Part shown: positions 9,460-17,894 of the stretch, in pieces
Numbering within the stretch: position 1 is the stretch's first letter
Layout: every line of letters begins with the position of its first letter
Origin: Oscillatoriophycideae cyanobacterium NC_groundwater_1537_Pr4_S-0.65um_50_18
GTDB taxonomy: Bacteria; Cyanobacteriota; Cyanobacteriia; Elainellales; Elainellaceae
Length of the DNA: 64,000 bases
Reading direction: 5' to 3'
Assembly: GCA_016208305.1 (NCBI GenBank)
Contig: JACQYI010000022.1
Location: forward strand, 62,001 to 126,000
The notes under the pieces: generated by a model
What the model was told of the DNA's origin: nothing
The model's input: only the letters and a program-made list of their open reading frames with translations
Databases searched by the model: none
Program-made: the position numbers and the translations under genes

Positions 9460-9477
9460 AGGGCTTAATTAAGCCCT
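9460..9477. terminator. 18-bp perfect palindrome between convergent genes
   Basis: AGGGCTTAATTAAGCCCT lies between the carboxypeptidase stop and the end of the LptC-like gene, and includes the latter's stop codon. It could serve as a small bidirectional hairpin, but there is no T-run and the loop must open at the centre. Confidence 0.35.
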
Positions 9478-10634
9478 TCAGGCACAATTTCAGTGACGAC
9501 TCTATTGTCGCCGCCTGGGCCACCCGTCACCACCATCGTTTTGTTATCCAGTCTGCCCAAGGCTCTCGCACCGCGCAGCGTAGCAGGTGGATCGTTCTGG
9601 TTATAGGTAATGTTGCCTTCCGCATCCATTCGCTGTGTTGGCATGTTCCAAACGAGGCGATCGGTAAATAGCTCAGACTGGTTTTGGGGATCAACAGCGT
9701 GAACGCTGCCATTCATGCGGCCAATCTTAGACTTCAAGTCCATTTGCCCCTGGTTAGCGGTAATCGTGATCTGCTGCTGCCGATGCACAACAGTCACGGG
9801 TTGATCAGCAATCAGCGTTTGCTGATTCATATCCCAATTCAAAGAGTTTCCGGCAATTTGCAGCGGCGGATCAAGCAGAATCAGGTTGGCATTTTGCTGT
9901 AGTTTGACAACTTTGCTGGCGAGGTTAACTTCGGCTTGCTTGCCCTCCGCCTGATCAATCGCGCGATCGCCTTGAATGCGTTGCACTTGAACTGGACGAT
10001 CGATCGTGACCAGATCCTTATCCATACTCCAAATCAAATGCTCAGACTGCATGCGCGCCTTAGGCTCTTGCTGCGTCAGGGCAATCACCTTGCCTGTCAG
10101 CTCCATCCGGCGCTGTTTGTTCATCACTCTGGCTTGATCAGCCGACATTTTGAGCTTGACATGGGTTCCACGCAAATTTCCCCGAACAATCATCACATCG
10201 GGTTTGGGTCGCCACTCTAGCTCATCGCCCCGCAGAATAGCTCCGGTCTTTAGATCGGTGGCAACCACCTGACCCCGCAGAAAGATTCGATCGCCGTTCC
10301 TTAAAACCTCTCCCTTTTGAGCCTGCACATGATAGATAGGTTTGCCATCTTGGTAAATATCGCCATCTGGACTCATTACCGTAGCAACCTTTTGGTCAGG
10401 GCTGTAAATGGCTTGCTTTGCCTTTACCTTCCAGAGCGTCTGACCATTTTCGGCAGCTTGCTCTAGAGTGATATTGTCAAACGTCAGATTGCTGCTGGCT
10501 TGCTGCGCTGCGCTGCTATCCTCTGCAAGTTTCTTAGCGGCCTGGTTACTTTGCTTGCAGCCTGTGTTGGCCACAAAGAGGATTAGCAGCAGCAGCAAGA
10601 TAGCGGGCTTTCCTGCAGACTTCTTTTCAGCCAT
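9465..10634 (-). CDS. lptC: LPS export periplasmic protein LptC-like, with OstA-like repeats
   Basis: A 389-residue protein. The ATG at 10634 puts a lipoprotein-like signal at the N-terminus (ILLLLLILFVANTGC); a start at 10727 would prepend 31 residues. After the anchor comes an LptC-type beta-jellyroll (about residues 45-190; NITLEQAAENGQTLWKVKA opening and the YSPD/GDIY/GEVLRNGDRIFLRG pattern), then further beta-strand repeats like OstA/LptA out to the end. LptC links the inner-membrane LptBFG pump to the periplasmic bridge that carries lipopolysaccharide. The protein is about twice the length of proteobacterial LptC, as is common in cyanobacteria, where the bridge domains seem fused. Confidence 0.85.
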   Translation of the reverse strand: MAEKKSAGKPAILLLLLILFVANTGCKQSNQAAKKLAEDSSAAQQASSNLTFDNITLEQAAENGQTLWKVKAKQAIYSPDQKVATVMSPDGDIYQDGKPIYHVQAQKGEVLRNGDRIFLRGQVVATDLKTGAILRGDELEWRPKPDVMIVRGNLRGTHVKLKMSADQARVMNKQRRMELTGKVIALTQQEPKARMQSEHLIWSMDKDLVTIDRPVQVQRIQGDRAIDQAEGKQAEVNLASKVVKLQQNANLILLDPPLQIAGNSLNWDMNQQTLIADQPVTVVHRQQQITITANQGQMDLKSKIGRMNGSVHAVDPQNQSELFTDRLVWNMPTQRMDAEGNITYNQNDPPATLRGARALGRLDNKTMVVTGGPGGDNRVVTEIVPEGLN

Positions 10635-10953
10635 ATCTTTACTCAATTTAAATAAACATCTCAACTTAAAGACGGCAAATTTAATAGAACCAAAGACTGC
10701 TTTGAAAAAGAGAGGCTGCTTTTTCAAAACATTTTTAGGTTAATTTCTCTCCCAATCCTTAACCAGCAAACTAGACAACCAGATGCGGCTCAAGCCATAT
10801 AGGTCAGACACAAAATATCAGACGCAAAAGCAATGAAAATCCTTCCCTAACTCTAACCTTTTAGAGGCAGGGACTCTTTCTTAATATGACCTTGGCTTTA
10901 GCGCCAGCAAGCAGCTGGCCGATCGTTAGATGCTTACCGATCGGCGGTTAACC
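10635..10953. promoter_or_regulatory. Intergenic region with hairpin at 10918-10945
   Basis: This stretch holds the promoter of the LptC-like gene and the end of the NYN gene, both on the minus strand. GCCGATCG (10918-10925) pairs perfectly with CGATCGGC (10938-10945). It sits just after the NYN stop codon and may be its terminator, although no T-run follows on the minus strand. Confidence 0.45.
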
Positions 10954-11565
10954 TTAATCGTCCACCACTTCTTCCACTAGCCCAATGCTTGACAAGGGTC
11001 TGTAGGTATAGCCTTGGCGCGGTGTTTTCTGAATGTCTTCCTTGATAAAGTCCAAATCAATGTAGCGATCGGCAACGTTAATCAAGCTATCGCTGGTCAT
11101 CGATCGCAAACTCACGACCTCTACCCGCACACCTCTATAGCTGACAGCATCGACGGCATAGGCCAAGTCGCCATCCCCACTCACCAGCACTGCCGTATCA
11201 TAAGCGCCCACGAGCGCCATCATATCCACTGCAATCTCTACATCCAAATTGGCTTTTTTAGAGCCGTCTGGAAGCTGCACCAAGTCTTTAGAAATGACGC
11301 GGTAACCGTTGCGCCGCATCCACAGTAGAAAACCTTGCTGCTTTTCATTCGTGCGATCGACCCCCGTATAAAAGAACGATCGCAGCAGCCGCGATCCCGC
11401 AGTCAAGCGGCAAAGCAGTTTTGTGTAGTCAATCTCAATTCCCAACTGAAGCGCAGCATAAAACAGGTTAGAGCCATCAATAAAGATAGCTACTCGACCC
11501 CGATTCTCTAAGACCTGCTCAGGCGTAAACAGAGAATCGCCTTCTATGGGGTGATTGCTAAACAT
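10954..11565 (-). CDS. NYN domain protein, LabA-like
   Basis: A 203-residue predicted nuclease of the PIN-like NYN superfamily. The acidic catalytic motifs are visible: IFIDGSNL near residue 28, KANLDVEIAVDMM near residue 108 and VLVSGDGDL near residue 128. LabA of Synechococcus elongatus, a member of this family, affects circadian output; whether this protein does so is unknown, though a kai cluster lies 47 kb away. The start at ATG 11565 is preferred over TTG 11574 because GAGG is ten bases upstream of the ATG and only two of the TTG. It lies 144 bases downstream of metG's end in the opposite reading sense of coordinates, that is, it is transcribed after metG on the same strand. Confidence 0.88.
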   Translation of the reverse strand: MFSNHPIEGDSLFTPEQVLENRGRVAIFIDGSNLFYAALQLGIEIDYTKLLCRLTAGSRLLRSFFYTGVDRTNEKQQGFLLWMRRNGYRVISKDLVQLPDGSKKANLDVEIAVDMMALVGAYDTAVLVSGDGDLAYAVDAVSYRGVRVEVVSLRSMTSDSLINVADRYIDLDFIKEDIQKTPRQGYTYRPLSSIGLVEEVVDD

Positions 11566-11709
11566 GATTTTCAAACCTCATTTTTATGATAGAAATATTA
11601 AACAAAAAATCAAAAGCTTACGCCATCCTAACGAACATTAGGGAAACTACCAGAGGTAGAAATACCCCTCACCCCCGACGGTGCAACGCTTGCGCCCCGT
11701 TTAGCTGAG

Positions 11710-13311
11710 CTAAATCGGTGGGGTAGGCAACTCAAGACGCTGAAAGATGGGCATAGCCTCTCCTAAGGTCTGACCAACAGGCAGTGACCCCCACAGCGCA
11801 TGAATTTCAAAAGGGGCAACTTCTGCGACATCGGGGTGATTAAAATCAACGCTGTAGCCCAGCTGTTGATAAATCGCGTTGCTGATATTGGGGATCAGGG
11901 GAGAGAGCAGGTAAGCCGCCAACCGAACAGACTCCAGCACTGCATATAGCACCACCTCTAGCTCTGCGCGTTTGCCCTGCTTGTAGAGCGTCCAAGGAGC
12001 CTGCTCATCTACATATTTATTGCTGGCTCTGACCAAAGCTAGAATAGCTTCGCAGGCTTGGCTAAAGGCCAAAACTTCATAGGCTTGAGCCACTTGTGCT
12101 CCCAGAGTTTTGCCCTTAGAGCGCAGGATATCTTCGGTCGAGATATCAGCGATCGCTACAGTAGGAACTTGGCGATCGCAGTATTTATAGACCATTTTCA
12201 GGGTGCGATTGAGCAAGTTCCCCAGATCGTTGGCCAAATCGGCATTCAGAATATTGACGAAACGCACCTCGCTAAAATCGCCGTCGCGCCCAAACTCAAT
12301 CTCTTTGAGGAAATAGTAGCGAATGGCATCAGAGCCGTAGCGCGCGACCAAATCCACGGGATCGATCACATTTCCTAAACTCTTGCCCATTTTTTGACCA
12401 TCTTTGGTCAAAAATCCATGCCCGTAAACCTGTTGAGGCAGAGGTAAGCCTGCTGACATTAGCATCGCTGGCCAGTAGACGGCATGAAACCGCAGAATAT
12501 CTTTGCCGATCAGATGTAGATTGACAGGCCAGCCACCGCTTAGGGCGTTTGCCAATGTTGGCTCTGCTTCGGGATCAACACAGGCGGTTACATAGTAGAC
12601 CAGAGCATCAAACCAGACGTAGATCGTATGGTCAGGATTAACCGGTAGCGGCAGTCCCCACTCGACATTTATCCGAGAGATAGAAAAATCTTGCAGCCCT
12701 TGGCTGACAAAGCTCAGAACTTCATTCCGGCGACTTTCGGGCTGGATAAAGTCAGGGCGATCGCTATAGAGCTGCTCCAGAGCTGACTGGTACTTAGAGA
12801 GGCGGAAAAAATAGTTTTGCTCATCTCGCCATTCAGCAGCCTTGTTAGGGTGCAAAGGGCAATGGTGTTCTTCGAGCAGCTCCCGCTCTTCTTTAAACTC
12901 CTCGCAAGAGACGCAGTACCAGCCCTGCTGCTGTCCCATGTAAATATCGCCATTGTCCCAAACGCGCTGAAAGAACTCATAGACGATCGCTTCGTGCCGC
13001 GCCGATGTCGTGCGAATAAAGCGATCGGGCTGGATGTTCATTTTCTCCCAGAGGGCAGCGAAGGCGGCAGAGTAGTAATCACAGTGCGCCTGGGGCGACT
13101 GACCTGCGGCTTCTGCCGTCCGCTGAATCTTTTGCCCATGCTCGTCTGTGCCTGTGATCATCAGGACAGACTGATTCTGCAATCTGTGAAATCGGGCTAT
13201 GGCATCAGCAGCAATAGTCGTGTACGCACTGCCCATGTGGGGCAGGTCATTAACGTAGTAGATCGGTGTAGCAACTGAAAATCGGTTTTGATCTGTAGTT
13301 TTAAAACTCAT
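11710..13311 (-). CDS. metG: Methionyl-tRNA synthetase
   Basis: Charges tRNA-Met with methionine using ATP. The class I signature HIGH appears as HMGS near residue 25 and the KMSKS loop as KMGKS near residue 310. A zinc-type insert with CVSC and a further Cys (HHCPLH) lies around residues 130-155. The 533 residues end with the anticodon-binding helical domain and there is no C-terminal tRNA-binding (dimerisation) extension. This is a single-copy housekeeping gene in most bacteria. Confidence 0.96.
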   Translation of the reverse strand: MSFKTTDQNRFSVATPIYYVNDLPHMGSAYTTIAADAIARFHRLQNQSVLMITGTDEHGQKIQRTAEAAGQSPQAHCDYYSAAFAALWEKMNIQPDRFIRTTSARHEAIVYEFFQRVWDNGDIYMGQQQGWYCVSCEEFKEERELLEEHHCPLHPNKAAEWRDEQNYFFRLSKYQSALEQLYSDRPDFIQPESRRNEVLSFVSQGLQDFSISRINVEWGLPLPVNPDHTIYVWFDALVYYVTACVDPEAEPTLANALSGGWPVNLHLIGKDILRFHAVYWPAMLMSAGLPLPQQVYGHGFLTKDGQKMGKSLGNVIDPVDLVARYGSDAIRYYFLKEIEFGRDGDFSEVRFVNILNADLANDLGNLLNRTLKMVYKYCDRQVPTVAIADISTEDILRSKGKTLGAQVAQAYEVLAFSQACEAILALVRASNKYVDEQAPWTLYKQGKRAELEVVLYAVLESVRLAAYLLSPLIPNISNAIYQQLGYSVDFNHPDVAEVAPFEIHALWGSLPVGQTLGEAMPIFQRLELPTPPI

Positions 13312-13344
13312 GAATCGCTAAAAGTTTTCCTTAAGCGCTGATGG

Positions 13345-13410
13345 CTTTGGACAATAAGGCTTTAGACAATAGAGCTTCAGGTAATAGAGCTTTAGGCAAT
13401 AGGGCTTTGG
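13345..13410. repeat. 15-bp tandem repeat, about 4.4 degenerate copies
   Basis: Units at 13345-13359, 13360-13374, 13375-13389 and 13390-13404, then a partial copy. The consensus is CTTTAGRCAATAGAG. It lies directly upstream of metG's start, which is at 13311 on the minus strand, so it could fall in the metG promoter or leader. Confidence 0.85.
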
Positions 13411-13727
13411 AAGCAGTGTATGGGCGATCGCTTTTTGGAAATTTTTCCTTCAAAACTGACCCCAAGAAAACGGCTGAGAAACAGCAGTCTCTTTAAATTG
13501 CTCCATAACCCTTGGATATTTTTCAAAAATCCCTAAAAAACTCCTAAATGATTTAGATTACCCAAAGCGAGCTGATTTTTAATATGCGTACCTTAAATGG
13601 ATGCAGACATTTGTTATTCAGTCAGTGCAACCTAACTCAATAAAACACTAGAACAGCCTTTCGGAATAATTCTATAGTTAGCCTCAGTATAGATAAACCT
13701 GACGGTCTTTGACCAACTGAATCGGCC

Positions 13728-13747
13728 TGAATGAAGTGGTTCATTCA
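13728..13747. repeat. Perfect 8-bp inverted repeat
   Basis: TGAATGAA, loop GTGG, then TTCATTCA. The core AATGAAGTG recurs as a half-site at 13893-13901 and 14150-14158 in the same orientation. It could be an operator, but no known regulator is recognised. Confidence 0.5.
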
Positions 13748-14434
13748 TCTGCACTACTTATCTATTCGTTAAGTTCTTGTTAAGTTTTGAGGCTCTGGTT
13801 TAACCAAGTACAGCCCAAGCCGGTATAGATTCAAATCATCTCTTTGCAAATCTCAGAAAAAAATTGAGGGTGCTGCACGCAGCTTTGCGCCTAATGAAGT
13901 GGGAAACCAATTTCTAGCCACCTTGCAGTACAAAGCTGAGTTAAACCCGCTGCGATTTGCACGACTCATCTTCACCTCTACAAATTGCTACAGATATTCC
14001 AAATTAGCTCTAGGTTTAATAAATATTCGTGCTCAAGTATCTATAAAAGTCTATCCATCACCTGACATTTCACGATTAAATCAACCTGATTTTGTATGCT
14101 AGATTGCATTTTTTAGGAGTCTATAAGTTTTTGGATTTAAGCTACACCGAATGAAGTGTTTTGAGACTAGCATCTAGTTGCTCTAATTCTAGGTTCAACC
14201 AAAAATTTCTTAAGATTCTCTCTACTCACTCCTCCAGCACAAAAATGGACATAGCCTGGGTGTAAGCAAGAGTCCAGGGTCAATCTGCCCGATCCCATAC
14301 TGAAGCAGCCGTGGGATTTTGCTGAATTCTGCAACAATTTCCTCCATAAGGCAGAGAAATACAGGAGCGATCGCCAGCAATGCAGCCTAAGATTAAGAAA
14401 GGTTACGGTTAAGGTATATGAGAGACAAGGGTTA

Positions 14435-15148
14435 ATGCAGAGTCCGCTGTTTATTTCTCAGCAGTTGCTGCGCTTGCTGGGGACTCGTATGTTCTGTCAT
14501 CACCAAGATAGAGTTCCGCGTCAAGGCGCAGTGGTAGTAGTGAGCAATCATCGCAGTTTTATGGATGCTCCTTTACTCATGGCAGCCATCGATCGCCCGA
14601 TTCGCTTTGCCTGCCATCATTACATGGGGCAGGTGCCTCTAATGCGTGACTTCGTAACGCGTCTGGGCTGTTTTCCCCTAGACACCCCTGATCAACGCCA
14701 GCAGAGCTTTTTTCATCAAGCCATCAATCTTCTGCAAGCCCATCAAATTGTTGGGCTATTCCCAGAAGGGGCAGAGCCAATGATTCAGCCCACTTGTCCT
14801 AGTGAAATGGGTGAATTTCAGCGTGGGTTTGCCCACTTAGCATTGCGTGCCCCTGTACAAGATTTGGCAATTTTGCCCGTGGCGATCGCTTCTTCGACAG
14901 AAACGACTAGCTCGGCTGTACCCTTGCAGCTTTTGAGCCTGTTTGACCCCTCAGAGCCGCTCTTTCAACAATCAGGGTGGCATCCTATGGTCGTCTACCA
15001 GCGGGTAAATGTGCTGATCGGCCATCCTATTTGGCTCACTTCAGCTCAACGCAGCAGTTATCAAGGTAAGCAGGCCCGATCAGTTGTGGCTGATTTAAAG
15101 GCTCAGTGTCAATCTGAAATCTCTGATTTACTTCGTTACGGGCAATAA
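14435..15148 (+). CDS. PlsC-like lysophospholipid acyltransferase (LPLAT family)
   Basis: A 237-residue acyltransferase that should move an acyl chain to a glycerolipid or another alcohol at the membrane. The catalytic H(X4)D motif is NHRSFMD (about residues 38-44), and the substrate-binding block appears as LFPEGAEP (about 108-115). No strong transmembrane helix is seen. The ATG at 14435 follows AAGGG. The stop codon is only five bases before the next gene, an alpha/beta-hydrolase resembling the N-terminal half of plant phytyl ester synthases, whose C-terminal half is an LPLAT domain. The pair may therefore act together. A role as ordinary 1-acylglycerol-3-phosphate acyltransferase is the alternative. 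Confidence 0.85.
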   Translation: MQSPLFISQQLLRLLGTRMFCHHQDRVPRQGAVVVVSNHRSFMDAPLLMAAIDRPIRFACHHYMGQVPLMRDFVTRLGCFPLDTPDQRQQSFFHQAINLLQAHQIVGLFPEGAEPMIQPTCPSEMGEFQRGFAHLALRAPVQDLAILPVAIASSTETTSSAVPLQLLSLFDPSEPLFQQSGWHPMVVYQRVNVLIGHPIWLTSAQRSSYQGKQARSVVADLKAQCQSEISDLLRYGQ

Positions 15149-15153
15149 CTCGA

Positions 15154-16032
15154 ATGCGCGATGCTCAGTCTTCTCCCTATTTTCGTGTGCCTCGTCCTCT
15201 CAATCCCCATGCACCTCTCCTCTTTTATCTGCCTGGAATGGATGGTACAGGGCAGCTTTTGAGCAGACAACTCGCAGGACTAGAGCAAGCCTTCGATATT
15301 CGTTGTTTAACCCTTCCTCCCGATGATTTGACGCCTTGGGAGACGCTCACCACTCAAGTTGTCAATTTGATTGAGGCTGAGCTAGCGCATGGCACCCAGC
15401 AGCCGACCTATCTTTGCGGGGAGTCGTTTGGAGGATGCTTGGCCTTAAAAGTGATGGAGCGATCGCCTCACCTGTTCGATCGGTTGATTTTGCTCAATCC
15501 TGCCACCTCTTTCAAACAATCGTTTTGGATTTATTGGGGATCATATCTTGTCCAGCCCTTGCCCGATCCGATTTACCAAACCTCTTGCGTGGGCTTCTTA
15601 CCTTTTTTGGCGGCTTTAGAACGGATTGAGGCCAGCGATCGTCGTGCCTTGCTAGATGCAATGCAGTCTGTTACGCAAAAGGCTTCGCTCTGGCGCATGT
15701 CTTTATTGCGAGAGTTTGAACTCCCCGATGCAGTCATCCGCAGTCTGCAAAAACCAGCCTTGCTTATAGCCAGCCAGCGCGATCGCCTCTTACCTTCTGT
15801 AAATGAAGCGAGCCGCTTAGCCAGCCTGTTGCCCAATGCTCAGATTCAGCTCTTACCCCAGAGTGGTCATGCCTGCCTTCTAGAAGCAGATGTCGATCTC
15901 TACGACATCCTAAAGGTCAACCAGTTTCTCCAACCTTCTCACCTGGCAGACACAACCCGCCGACAGAACACGCCTCAGCCCCCAGCCCCTAGTGCCGAGC
16001 ACAAAGCTGAGCAAAAGAACGTTATGGCCTGA
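15154..16032 (+). CDS. Alpha/beta-hydrolase resembling the N-terminal domain of phytyl ester synthase
   Basis: A 292-residue alpha/beta-hydrolase. It shows an oxyanion-type FYLPGMDGTG segment (about residues 26-35), the nucleophile elbow GESFGG (Ser about residue 91), a NPATSF segment (about 115) and a GHACLL segment carrying the catalytic His (about 237). LPGxDGTG, the F(D/E)xRCL stretch and NPATSF are, from memory, hallmarks of the PES/ELT-type acyltransferases that make phytyl esters and triacylglycerol in chloroplasts. It is tightly coupled (five bases) to the upstream acyltransferase gene. The C-terminus carries a 30-residue Pro/Ala/Lys-rich tail. The true reaction, whether hydrolase, lipase or acyl transfer, is not decided by sequence. 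Confidence 0.85.
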   Translation: MRDAQSSPYFRVPRPLNPHAPLLFYLPGMDGTGQLLSRQLAGLEQAFDIRCLTLPPDDLTPWETLTTQVVNLIEAELAHGTQQPTYLCGESFGGCLALKVMERSPHLFDRLILLNPATSFKQSFWIYWGSYLVQPLPDPIYQTSCVGFLPFLAALERIEASDRRALLDAMQSVTQKASLWRMSLLREFELPDAVIRSLQKPALLIASQRDRLLPSVNEASRLASLLPNAQIQLLPQSGHACLLEADVDLYDILKVNQFLQPSHLADTTRRQNTPQPPAPSAEHKAEQKNVMA

Positions 16033-16043
16033 AGCCTTGCCCT

Positions 16044-17027
16044 TTAGATCTCCGCAAATCGATCGGTCGCTTGAATCAGGGCACTCCGAATGCCTGGCTC
16101 GGTCATAGAATGTCCGGCATCTGGTACCACAATGAATTCTGCTTCAGGCAATGCCTGATGGAGTTCCCAAGCCGAAACCATTGGGCAAACTACGTCGTAG
16201 CGCCCCTGGACTATCACCGTTGGAATATGCCGAATGCGATCGCAGTTTCGTAAAAGCTGATCTTCGGTTTCTAAAAATCCTTTATTTACAAAATAATGGC
16301 ATTCAATCCGGGCAAACGCATCGGCAAACTGGCTCTCGCCAAACCGCTGTCGCAATCCCGTATCCGGCAAGAGCTTGCTGGTGCTGCCTTCCCAAATGGA
16401 CCAGGCTCTTGCCGCTTCTGATCGCACGGTGCGATCGTCGCTGGTCAATCGTTTGTAATAGGCACCAATCAGGTCATGTCGTTCTGCCACCGGAATGGGC
16501 TGTAGGTAAGATTCCCAAGCATCAGGAAAAATGTAGCTGGTTCCTTCCTGATAAAACCACTGTAATTCCTTCTGGCGTAGCAAAAAAATTCCTCGCAGAA
16601 TCAGCCCTTGACAAGAGGTGGGGTGGGTCTGGCTGTAGGCCAGCGATAACGTGCTGCCCCAGCTCCCGCCAAAAACCACCCAATGGTCAATACCCAGATG
16701 GATACGGATCTGCTCTATATCGCTGACCAAGCTCCAGGTGTCGTTTTCACGCAGCTCGGCATGGGGGGTGCTGCGTCCACAGCCCCGTTGGTCAAACAAG
16801 ATAATCCGCCATTTTTGGGGATCAAAGTATTGCCGATAGATGGGGTCAATGCCGCCACCAGGGCCACCATGAAGAAACACAACAGGCTTGCCTACCGGAT
16901 TACCCGCTTGCTCAAAATAGAGGGTATGGAGGTCAGAAACCTGAAGGGTGCCCGTGGCGTAAGGGGCGATCGCTGGATACAGCTCTCTTAAAGCACTATT
17001 TTGAGGAGATATTTCTTGAGGGGGCAT
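16044..17027 (-). CDS. pip: Proline iminopeptidase (S33 family)
   Basis: A 327-residue alpha/beta-hydrolase that releases N-terminal proline from peptides in the cytoplasm. It shows the HGGPGGG oxyanion segment (about residues 53-59), DQRGCGRS (about 79-86), the nucleophile elbow GGSWGS (about 118-123) and the C-terminal catalytic GHS (about 305), all characteristic of the Pip subfamily. No signal peptide is seen. The gene converges with the preceding hydrolase gene, with 11 bases between the stops. Confidence 0.94.
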   Translation of the reverse strand: MPPQEISPQNSALRELYPAIAPYATGTLQVSDLHTLYFEQAGNPVGKPVVFLHGGPGGGIDPIYRQYFDPQKWRIILFDQRGCGRSTPHAELRENDTWSLVSDIEQIRIHLGIDHWVVFGGSWGSTLSLAYSQTHPTSCQGLILRGIFLLRQKELQWFYQEGTSYIFPDAWESYLQPIPVAERHDLIGAYYKRLTSDDRTVRSEAARAWSIWEGSTSKLLPDTGLRQRFGESQFADAFARIECHYFVNKGFLETEDQLLRNCDRIRHIPTVIVQGRYDVVCPMVSAWELHQALPEAEFIVVPDAGHSMTEPGIRSALIQATDRFAEI

Positions 17028-17453
17028 GACAAGGTAGTTGGGATAGCTCTCTCAAACGCTACCTCAAAATCGCCTTCAGACGACACTTCAAGCCGCAAAC
17101 TCAGCTCAATGATATTTCAACGCTGCTGATAGCGAAGGTTGATTAGACAGTTATCGCTATAGTCACAAGTGTCAGGACGGAGATATTTTTGTGAGTGCGC
17201 ACTTGCACGTCCATAAAAATGTCCTGCGCATCATCGCTACGGCTTATACCCGCCAGATTGCTACAAGACCTACACTACAATTGAGGATAGAAGGGGCTTG
17301 TGCCAAATCTGTGCCTAAACCTTCACCTAATTTGTCAAAAGAGCTTTGTTGAAAGCAGCTTCATCAAAAGCAAACCACAGAAAAAGTACAGCACAGAGCT
17401 AAGCCAACTGCATCACCATTCTGCCCTTAAAGCTGAACTTGCCTAACCTAAGC
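17028..17453. promoter_or_regulatory. Intergenic region with imperfect inverted repeat (17174-17225)
   Basis: Divergent promoter region between pip and a small conserved gene. Within it AGGAC...ATTTTTGTG (17174-17193) faces CATAAAAATGTCCT (17212-17225), around a perfect AGTGCGCACT palindrome at 17194-17203. The arms resemble the terminator hairpin at 37782-37814 and may be a decayed relative. No RNA gene is recognised. Confidence 0.45.
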
Positions 17454-17894
17454 ATGAGCTTCCAAGCAAACTTTCAACCCTCTCAAATCGTTTGCTTGGA
17501 GTGTCAAGCAGCTTATCTTTATGCAGAGGTTATTCAGGTCGTAGAGCAGCGTCAGCTTTGCTGGGTACGACCCATCGCCTTGGTAGAGGATTTTAAGGGC
17601 AAACCTGTCTCAAATCAACAGTCCTGGAATCAGGGCAATGCTTCATACAATCGCCCTGGCACTTCTGACATCCTCTATGACTTACGCGAAGGGTCTGATT
17701 TACTCTGTCCTGCATCTCTTTTTCGCCCTGCCCTAGATACAGAAGTCATCCCGATTCTGACCGAGCTTGAAAGTCATCAAGCCAAGGGAGAAGAACCCGA
17801 AGCAGGCGCTCTACCCATCTCAAGCTCCCGTCATCAGCTCCAGGCGTTCATTCGGCGTGTCTGGCAAGCCTACCCTCAAGCTTTCCAATCCTAA
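17454..17894 (+). CDS. Conserved hypothetical protein
   Basis: A 146-residue protein with no recognised domain. ATG 17454 is preferred to TTG 17439, though neither has a strong ribosome site. It contains an early CLECQAAYLYAEVIQV segment with two Cys, a Trp-Val-Arg-Pro motif, a Ser/Asn-rich middle (about 50-70), and an ending FIRRVWQAYPQAF that looks like a conserved helix. It is likely cytoplasmic. I have an impression of similar small proteins across cyanobacteria but cannot name the family. Confidence 0.68.
   Translation: MSFQANFQPSQIVCLECQAAYLYAEVIQVVEQRQLCWVRPIALVEDFKGKPVSNQQSWNQGNASYNRPGTSDILYDLREGSDLLCPASLFRPALDTEVIPILTELESHQAKGEEPEAGALPISSSRHQLQAFIRRVWQAYPQAFQS

Follow-up and report, generated by a model that had tools for sequence, protein, structure and literature searches.

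Conserved gene pair of a putative PlsC-fold acyltransferase and an alpha/beta-hydrolase in cyanobacteria, with a possible role in acyl-plastoquinol metabolism

Sections of PMC12526585 assign phytyl ester synthase (PES) to the DAGAT superfamily and describe two Chlamydomonas PES proteins with the hydrolase region ahead of a C-terminal acyltransferase, i.e., in the reverse of the gene order studied here, as an earlier reading of the sequence alone had stated. In cyanobacteria, the acyltransferase domain of PES has its counterpart in slr2103/MFAT, which according to passages of PMC12048435 is the sister of plant ELT acyltransferase domains. The same passages list plastoquinol, diacylglycerol and phytol as MFAT substrates, with triacylglycerol (TAG), phytyl esters and acylated plastoquinols as products, and report that Synechocystis 6803 and Synechococcus 7002 need MFAT for TAG and phytyl esters.

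Descriptions of acylated plastoquinol in cyanobacteria date from 2023 onward, and there are also reports from algae and a plant. A commentary questions the algal and plant data (PMC12174987), and the authors have answered it, judging by an excerpt of the exchange. G. violaceus PCC 7421 lacks MFAT but nevertheless makes acyl-PQH; its TAG and FAPE are very low, acyl-PQC is absent, and the acyltransferase behind its acyl-PQH is described as still being sought, while PCC 7942 has neither MFAT nor acyl-PQH (sections of PMC12048435). Two strains without slr2103 orthologues are stated in part of PMC11973298 to make acyl-plastoquinol, and not PQB, via unknown genes. Among two MFAT-free producers of acyl-plastoquinol, Gloeobacter is the one that is named (PMC12174987).

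The window analyzed here is the whole stretch of 64,000 nucleotides. It contains a gene for an LPLAT-superfamily acyltransferase (AT), followed on the same strand after five bases by a gene for an alpha/beta-hydrolase (HY), which bears out the arrangement given in the sequence-only reading (Table 1). From the short gap, AT and HY would be expected on one transcript. Between window positions 13300 and 16200, 4 promoter-like sites were found where 3.1 are expected, with nothing above chance before AT, and there was no Rfam match within 13000-17500. A 15-base tandem repeat of 4.4 copies (13343-13408) lies between metG and AT. The block that diverges from AT (9465-13311, minus strand) consists of metG, a NYN-domain gene and an LptC/LptA-type gene, and the respective clusters were seen at 22, 22 and 18 of the 40 loci fetched. 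metG is a marker of the conserved locus and stands outside the AT-HY module. On the other side, a second alpha/beta-hydrolase gene (16044-17027, minus strand; PF00561 6.9e-35), which we take to be proline iminopeptidase-like by its sequence, ends head-on against HY.

Table 1. Features of the AT-HY locus, with positions counted in the window.
Feature	Position	Strand	Description
metG, methionyl-tRNA synthetase	11710..13311	-	PF09334 1.2e-103; divergent neighbour of AT
Intergenic stretch, metG (divergent) to AT	13312..14434	none	promoter presumed here, none identified
AT, LPLAT-superfamily acyltransferase	14435..15148	+	ORF, 237 aa; PF01553 1.6e-25
Gap from AT stop to HY start	15149..15153	+	5 bases, from sequence
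HY, alpha/beta-hydrolase	15154..16032	+	ORF, 292 aa; PF00561 3.4e-10

Orthologues were counted in a phylum sample of 146 genomes, with HY accepted at E < 1e-50 (next match 1.2e-11) and AT at E < 1e-70 (next match 2e-26). HY was found in 47 of these genomes and AT in 26, all of them within the 47, and AT adjoins HY in 23 of the 26, with AT first. A class sample of 242 genomes, which overlaps the phylum sample and was searched with profiles at E <= 1e-30, contained HY in 138 genomes, AT in 121 and MFAT in 91. HY is present in every one of the 121 AT genomes. The two genes are adjacent in the order AT then HY in 117 of them, and in the remaining four they lie on different contigs of draft assemblies. 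The gap between the matches of the 117 adjacent pairs has a median of 51 bases and is below 100 bases in 87. Additionally, named genomes were scanned, which gave 474 confirmed HY relatives, and AT stands beside HY in 76 of the closest 80. The closest pair among these best 80 of 474 is that of Drouetiella hepatica (HY 84%, AT 88%). An adjacency confined to this genome, which the sequence-only reading had allowed for, is refuted by these surveys, and AT-HY is a conserved cyanobacterial pair.

The exceptions also center on the same locus. HY stands alone at the metG-side locus in nine of 21 AT-less loci, and in three genomes AT is found there with HY elsewhere; we read both as losses or moves from an ancestral AT-HY locus. 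No fused AT-HY form was apparent by open frames in the 138 HY genomes of the class sample. Open frames at HY are about 500 aa long in three Gloeobacter-type genomes. In the three loci that were read (L211, L212 and L223), the frame of HY continues without a stop through the AT gene, which lies in a different frame, and automated annotation may predict too long a protein there.

AT has the features of the LPLAT superfamily, namely the HX4D motif (H39 and D44, within NHRSFMD at residues 38-44), the EG motif (FPEG at 109-112, within FPEGAEP at 109-115) and, in its predicted model, the PlsC fold. All 26 AT orthologues of the phylum sample keep H39, D44 and FPEG without variation. PF01553 was the sole Pfam match of AT and is matched by 26 of 26 of these orthologues, none of which matches DAGAT (PF03982) at E <= 1. 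The best VIA match of the AlphaFold model (pLDDT 83.1) is the Thermotoga PlsC 5kym_A (Z 17.8, 2.8 A over 188 residues), with GPATs next. However, AT reaches 60.3 bits against the PlsC model TIGR00530, which has a curated cut-off of 102.95, and no NCBIfam model reached its cut-off for either AT or HY.

In a tree of 40 rows, the 18 AT rows fall on one side of a branch that is only moderately supported (71/87 support, present in 70% of 200 bootstrap trees). MFAT forms a clade with 100/100 support and with AT outside it, and the PlsC-like groups PlsCa and PlsCb are also separate from AT. The sequence-only reading had considered that the acyltransferase might cluster with ordinary PlsC, and this is not where the tree puts it. 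A housekeeping PlsC is ruled out by the TIGR00530 score together with the tree, in which the AT branch has moderate support, and MFAT or the acyltransferase half of PES is ruled out by the tree together with the matches to PF01553 as opposed to DAGAT. By its sequence and predicted structure, AT is a PlsC-fold enzyme of PF01553 in a clade of its own and not a DAGAT-type LPLAT like that of PES. A profile comparison of AT with MFAT gave a distant similarity (E 1.7e-5 over 109 columns), and the MFAT profile, compared with 21 LPLAT proteins, matched only two Gloeobacter-type ATs, weakly (9.1e-6 and 1.5e-5). AT-like LPLATs with 28-35% identity (E 2e-26 to 7e-22) were seen in L057, L058 and L060, which belong to other classes of the phylum. 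These proteins form their own clade in the 40-row tree, and HY was not found in the three genomes.

HY carries the motifs LPGMDGTG (residues 26-33), GESFGG (89-94) and NPATSF (115-120), so that all motifs quoted for the two proteins in the sequence-only reading have been located. The catalytic residues are probably S91 (in GESFG), D210 and H239, which are invariant in the 26 rows of an alignment of 26 of the 47 phylum-sample HY orthologues. General alpha/beta-hydrolase models match HY in Pfam, with Abhydrolase_1 as the best (3.4e-10). The AlphaFold model of HY (pLDDT 86.3) resembles many esterases in VIA, at Z values of about 22-24 (top 24.0), and these predicted-model matches, together with those from Foldseek, point to a common fold and not to a substrate. 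No HY relative was confirmed in viral contigs. Another alpha/beta-hydrolase, alr1709/sll0553, is contained in a table of Anabaena cyanoglobule proteins (PMC12923008). Both the kept motifs and the kept order of AT then HY argue that the pair is more than chance. As for the proposal that the two genes match the two halves of PES, the module of an acyltransferase and a hydrolase stands, but AT belongs to PF01553 (26/26) and not to DAGAT (0/26). The PES parallel is therefore half right at most, and the half in question is the hydrolase, in that HY may correspond to the hydrolase half of PES.

The cyanobacterial DAGAT family was taken as MFAT/slr2103 on the basis of its Pfam match and because it is missing where publications report no MFAT; DAGAT is matched by 21 of 21 MFAT proteins. 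Among the 138 HY genomes of the class sample, 56 have AT and MFAT, 65 have AT only, 16 have MFAT only and one, G325, has neither and gives a partial HY match. MFAT is accordingly found in 72 of the 138, and HY is accompanied by AT or MFAT in 137. Without AT, HY genomes have MFAT in 16 of 17 cases, the 17th being the partial HY match, while the 104 class genomes without HY contain MFAT in 19 and AT in none. In the phylum sample, a DAGAT match is present in all 21 genomes that have HY but not AT, and in none of them does it adjoin HY. The 137 of 138 in one sample and the 21 of 21 in the other therefore indicate that HY has AT or MFAT as its companion.

Uncorrected Fisher tests give extreme values for the class counts, though they ignore genome kinship. 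A 60-row HY tree shows seven changes of AT, with only two independent pairs on well-supported branches. A relatedness-corrected sign test of AT against MFAT, from which G097 was left out (its DAGAT match is below the cut-off), was not significant, the pairs being too few for significance. In none of the pairings of this tree does MFAT change in the same direction as AT. Mutual replacement of AT and MFAT is thus suggestive in plain counts and not significant once relatedness is allowed for. Additionally, the presence of both in 56 genomes means that they are not simply interchangeable. In the source genome of the window, a profile search did not find MFAT.

The distribution of the pair can be compared with the strains that lack MFAT. 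We take G156 to be G. violaceus PCC 7421, and G179, G168 and G220 are presumably G. kilaueensis, G. morelensis and Anthocerotibacter panamensis. G166 is assumed to be S. elongatus PCC 6301, which is closely related to PCC 7942 and stands in for it here, and G089 to be Thermosynechococcus vestitus BP-1. In profile searches, the AT-HY pair is present and an MFAT match absent in G156, G179, G168 and G220, whereas AT, HY and MFAT are all absent from G166 and G089. A separate MFAT search of six genomes was empty and had no control of its own; the same profile matches 91 of the 242 class genomes, and neither the five of those six that belong to the class sample (G156, G179, G168, G166 and G220) nor G089 are among the 91. 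When the MFAT-free producer of acyl-plastoquinol is set against the non-producer, AT and HY are both present in G156 and both missing from G166, with the identities of the two genomes as assumed here. G156 contains four PF01553 genes, three of which have close relatives in G166 (two share the same one), while AT has none. A search for WS/DGAT enzymes gave no match in six genomes, but no control gave a match either and this is not evidence of absence.

These observations lead us to a tentative proposal, for which we would put the chances at clearly below even, that AT acylates plastoquinol and HY deacylates acyl-plastoquinol. AT-HY would be an old cyanobacterial module for lipid acylation and deacylation. 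We infer that AT, as an O-acyltransferase of its own subfamily with a predicted PlsC fold, would transfer a fatty acyl group to a neutral lipid alcohol, with acyl-ACP as the probable donor and 16:0 or 18:0 as the probable chain, and that HY, as a serine hydrolase, would work in the other direction and remove the same acyl group. The most likely alcohol would be plastoquinol, in which case the pair would make and break acyl-plastoquinol and AT would be the MFAT-independent acyl-plastoquinol synthase of Gloeobacter. We favor plastoquinol because the lipid data given for two MFAT-free strains in passages of PMC12048435 match the presence of the pair, and because HY accompanies AT or MFAT and the published activities of MFAT include plastoquinol acylation. 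If plastoquinol is the substrate, the second MFAT-free producer of acyl-plastoquinol would be expected to carry AT.

The alternative that survives best, although we consider it rather unlikely, is acyl editing of membrane lipids of the Lands type, in which HY deacylates a glycerolipid (e.g., phosphatidylglycerol or a galactolipid) and the resulting lyso-lipid is acylated again by AT, as part of repair or of acclimation to temperature. Such editing needs no special substrate. The PF01553 match and the PlsC fold of AT agree with it, its best structural match (5kym_A, Z 17.8) is a glycerolipid acyltransferase, which suits editing at least as well, and HY resembles lipases and esterases. From structure alone, i.e., from predicted models, membrane-lipid editing would be nearly as likely as the plastoquinol reading. 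However, the only other regular partner of HY by presence is MFAT, which acylates diacylglycerol, phytol and plastoquinol. In addition, the genomes taken for S. elongatus and Thermosynechococcus are without AT and HY, even though strains of these types have the same membrane lipid classes.

It is unlikely that the pair acts on another hydroxylated lipid, such as a carotenoid glycoside, a hopanoid, tocopherol or another isoprenoid alcohol, or that HY is itself an O-acyltransferase with AT acting upstream of it. There is a precedent for the latter in OlsI, an alpha/beta-hydrolase that acts as an O-acyltransferase according to part of PMC12493201, and the OlsI model does match HY, although at 33.4 bits this is weak against a cut-off of 385. 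The conserved neighbors, the metG, NYN and LptC genes, point to no pathway of this kind.

The sequence-only reading had suggested that the pair esterifies phytol or diacylglycerol, so that, as a PES-like system without fusion, it would form triacylglycerol or phytyl esters of fatty acids, perhaps in chlorophyll turnover. The two enzyme classes are indeed both those of PES, the adjacency is conserved, and the hydrolase motifs are as quoted. Against this, AT is not of the DAGAT type and groups apart from MFAT, and TAG and phytyl esters are MFAT-dependent in Synechocystis 6803 and Synechococcus 7002. Furthermore, G. violaceus, which by our genome assignment carries the pair, holds acyl-plastoquinol with very low TAG and FAPE in the sections of PMC12048435 that describe it. 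Esterification of phytol or diacylglycerol is therefore disfavored, and we regard it as quite improbable. Least probable of all is that the Gloeobacter acyl-plastoquinol synthase is an MBOAT protein and AT-HY is unrelated: one MBOAT match in G156 and none in G166 fit the same subtraction, which therefore does not single out AT, but O-acetylation of sugars is a frequent function of bacterial MBOAT proteins of similar size.

As its presence agrees with the lipid data of the two MFAT-free strains under the genome identities assumed here, AT-HY is a direct candidate for acyl-plastoquinol synthesis where MFAT is missing. If AT does acylate plastoquinol, a conserved gene pair would be tied to control of the plastoquinone pool, and the hydrolase half of plant PES would gain a possible origin in bacteria. 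A broader and doubtful extension of the plastoquinol proposal is that AT-HY represents an ancestral acyl-plastoquinol cycle, that HY could serve MFAT in place of AT once MFAT had arisen, which allowed the loss of AT in several lineages, and that the chloroplast PES family arose as an HY-type hydrolase joined to an MFAT-type acyltransferase. We found no description of the AT-HY pair in the open-access literature searched, and Tanikawa 2025 may already include AT.

Compared with known systems, AT-HY resembles plant and algal PES/ELT in that one genetic unit supplies both an alpha/beta-hydrolase and an acyltransferase of the LPLAT superfamily, as described in sections of PMC12526585, and in that HY is an alpha/beta-hydrolase domain with a predicted catalytic serine. 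It differs in that AT and HY are separate genes in the reverse order, with a stop codon and five bases between them and no fusion, and in that AT belongs to PF01553 while the PES acyltransferase is of the DAGAT type. MFAT (slr2103, A0918) is, like AT, a cyanobacterial acyltransferase that co-occurs with HY, but it belongs to the DAGAT family, forms a separate and fully supported clade, and does not adjoin HY in any of the 21 phylum-sample genomes that have HY without AT. Bacterial PlsC (1-acylglycerol-3-phosphate acyltransferase) shares PF01553 and the HX4D and EG motifs with AT and is its best fold match, whereas AT lies below the TIGR00530 cut-off and apart from two PlsC-like groups. In the OlsH/OlsI ornithine lipid pathway, an alpha/beta-hydrolase has a role in lipid acylation, which recalls HY, but passages of PMC12493201 describe its partner as a GH3-like enzyme and not an LPLAT, and HY scores far below the OlsI cut-off. 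The role proposed for HY is that of APL, the acylplastoquinol lipase of Synechocystis (Jimbo et al. 2024), which in part of PMC11973298 frees plastoquinol from its acyl ester, and the two enzymes are likened here by this described role only.
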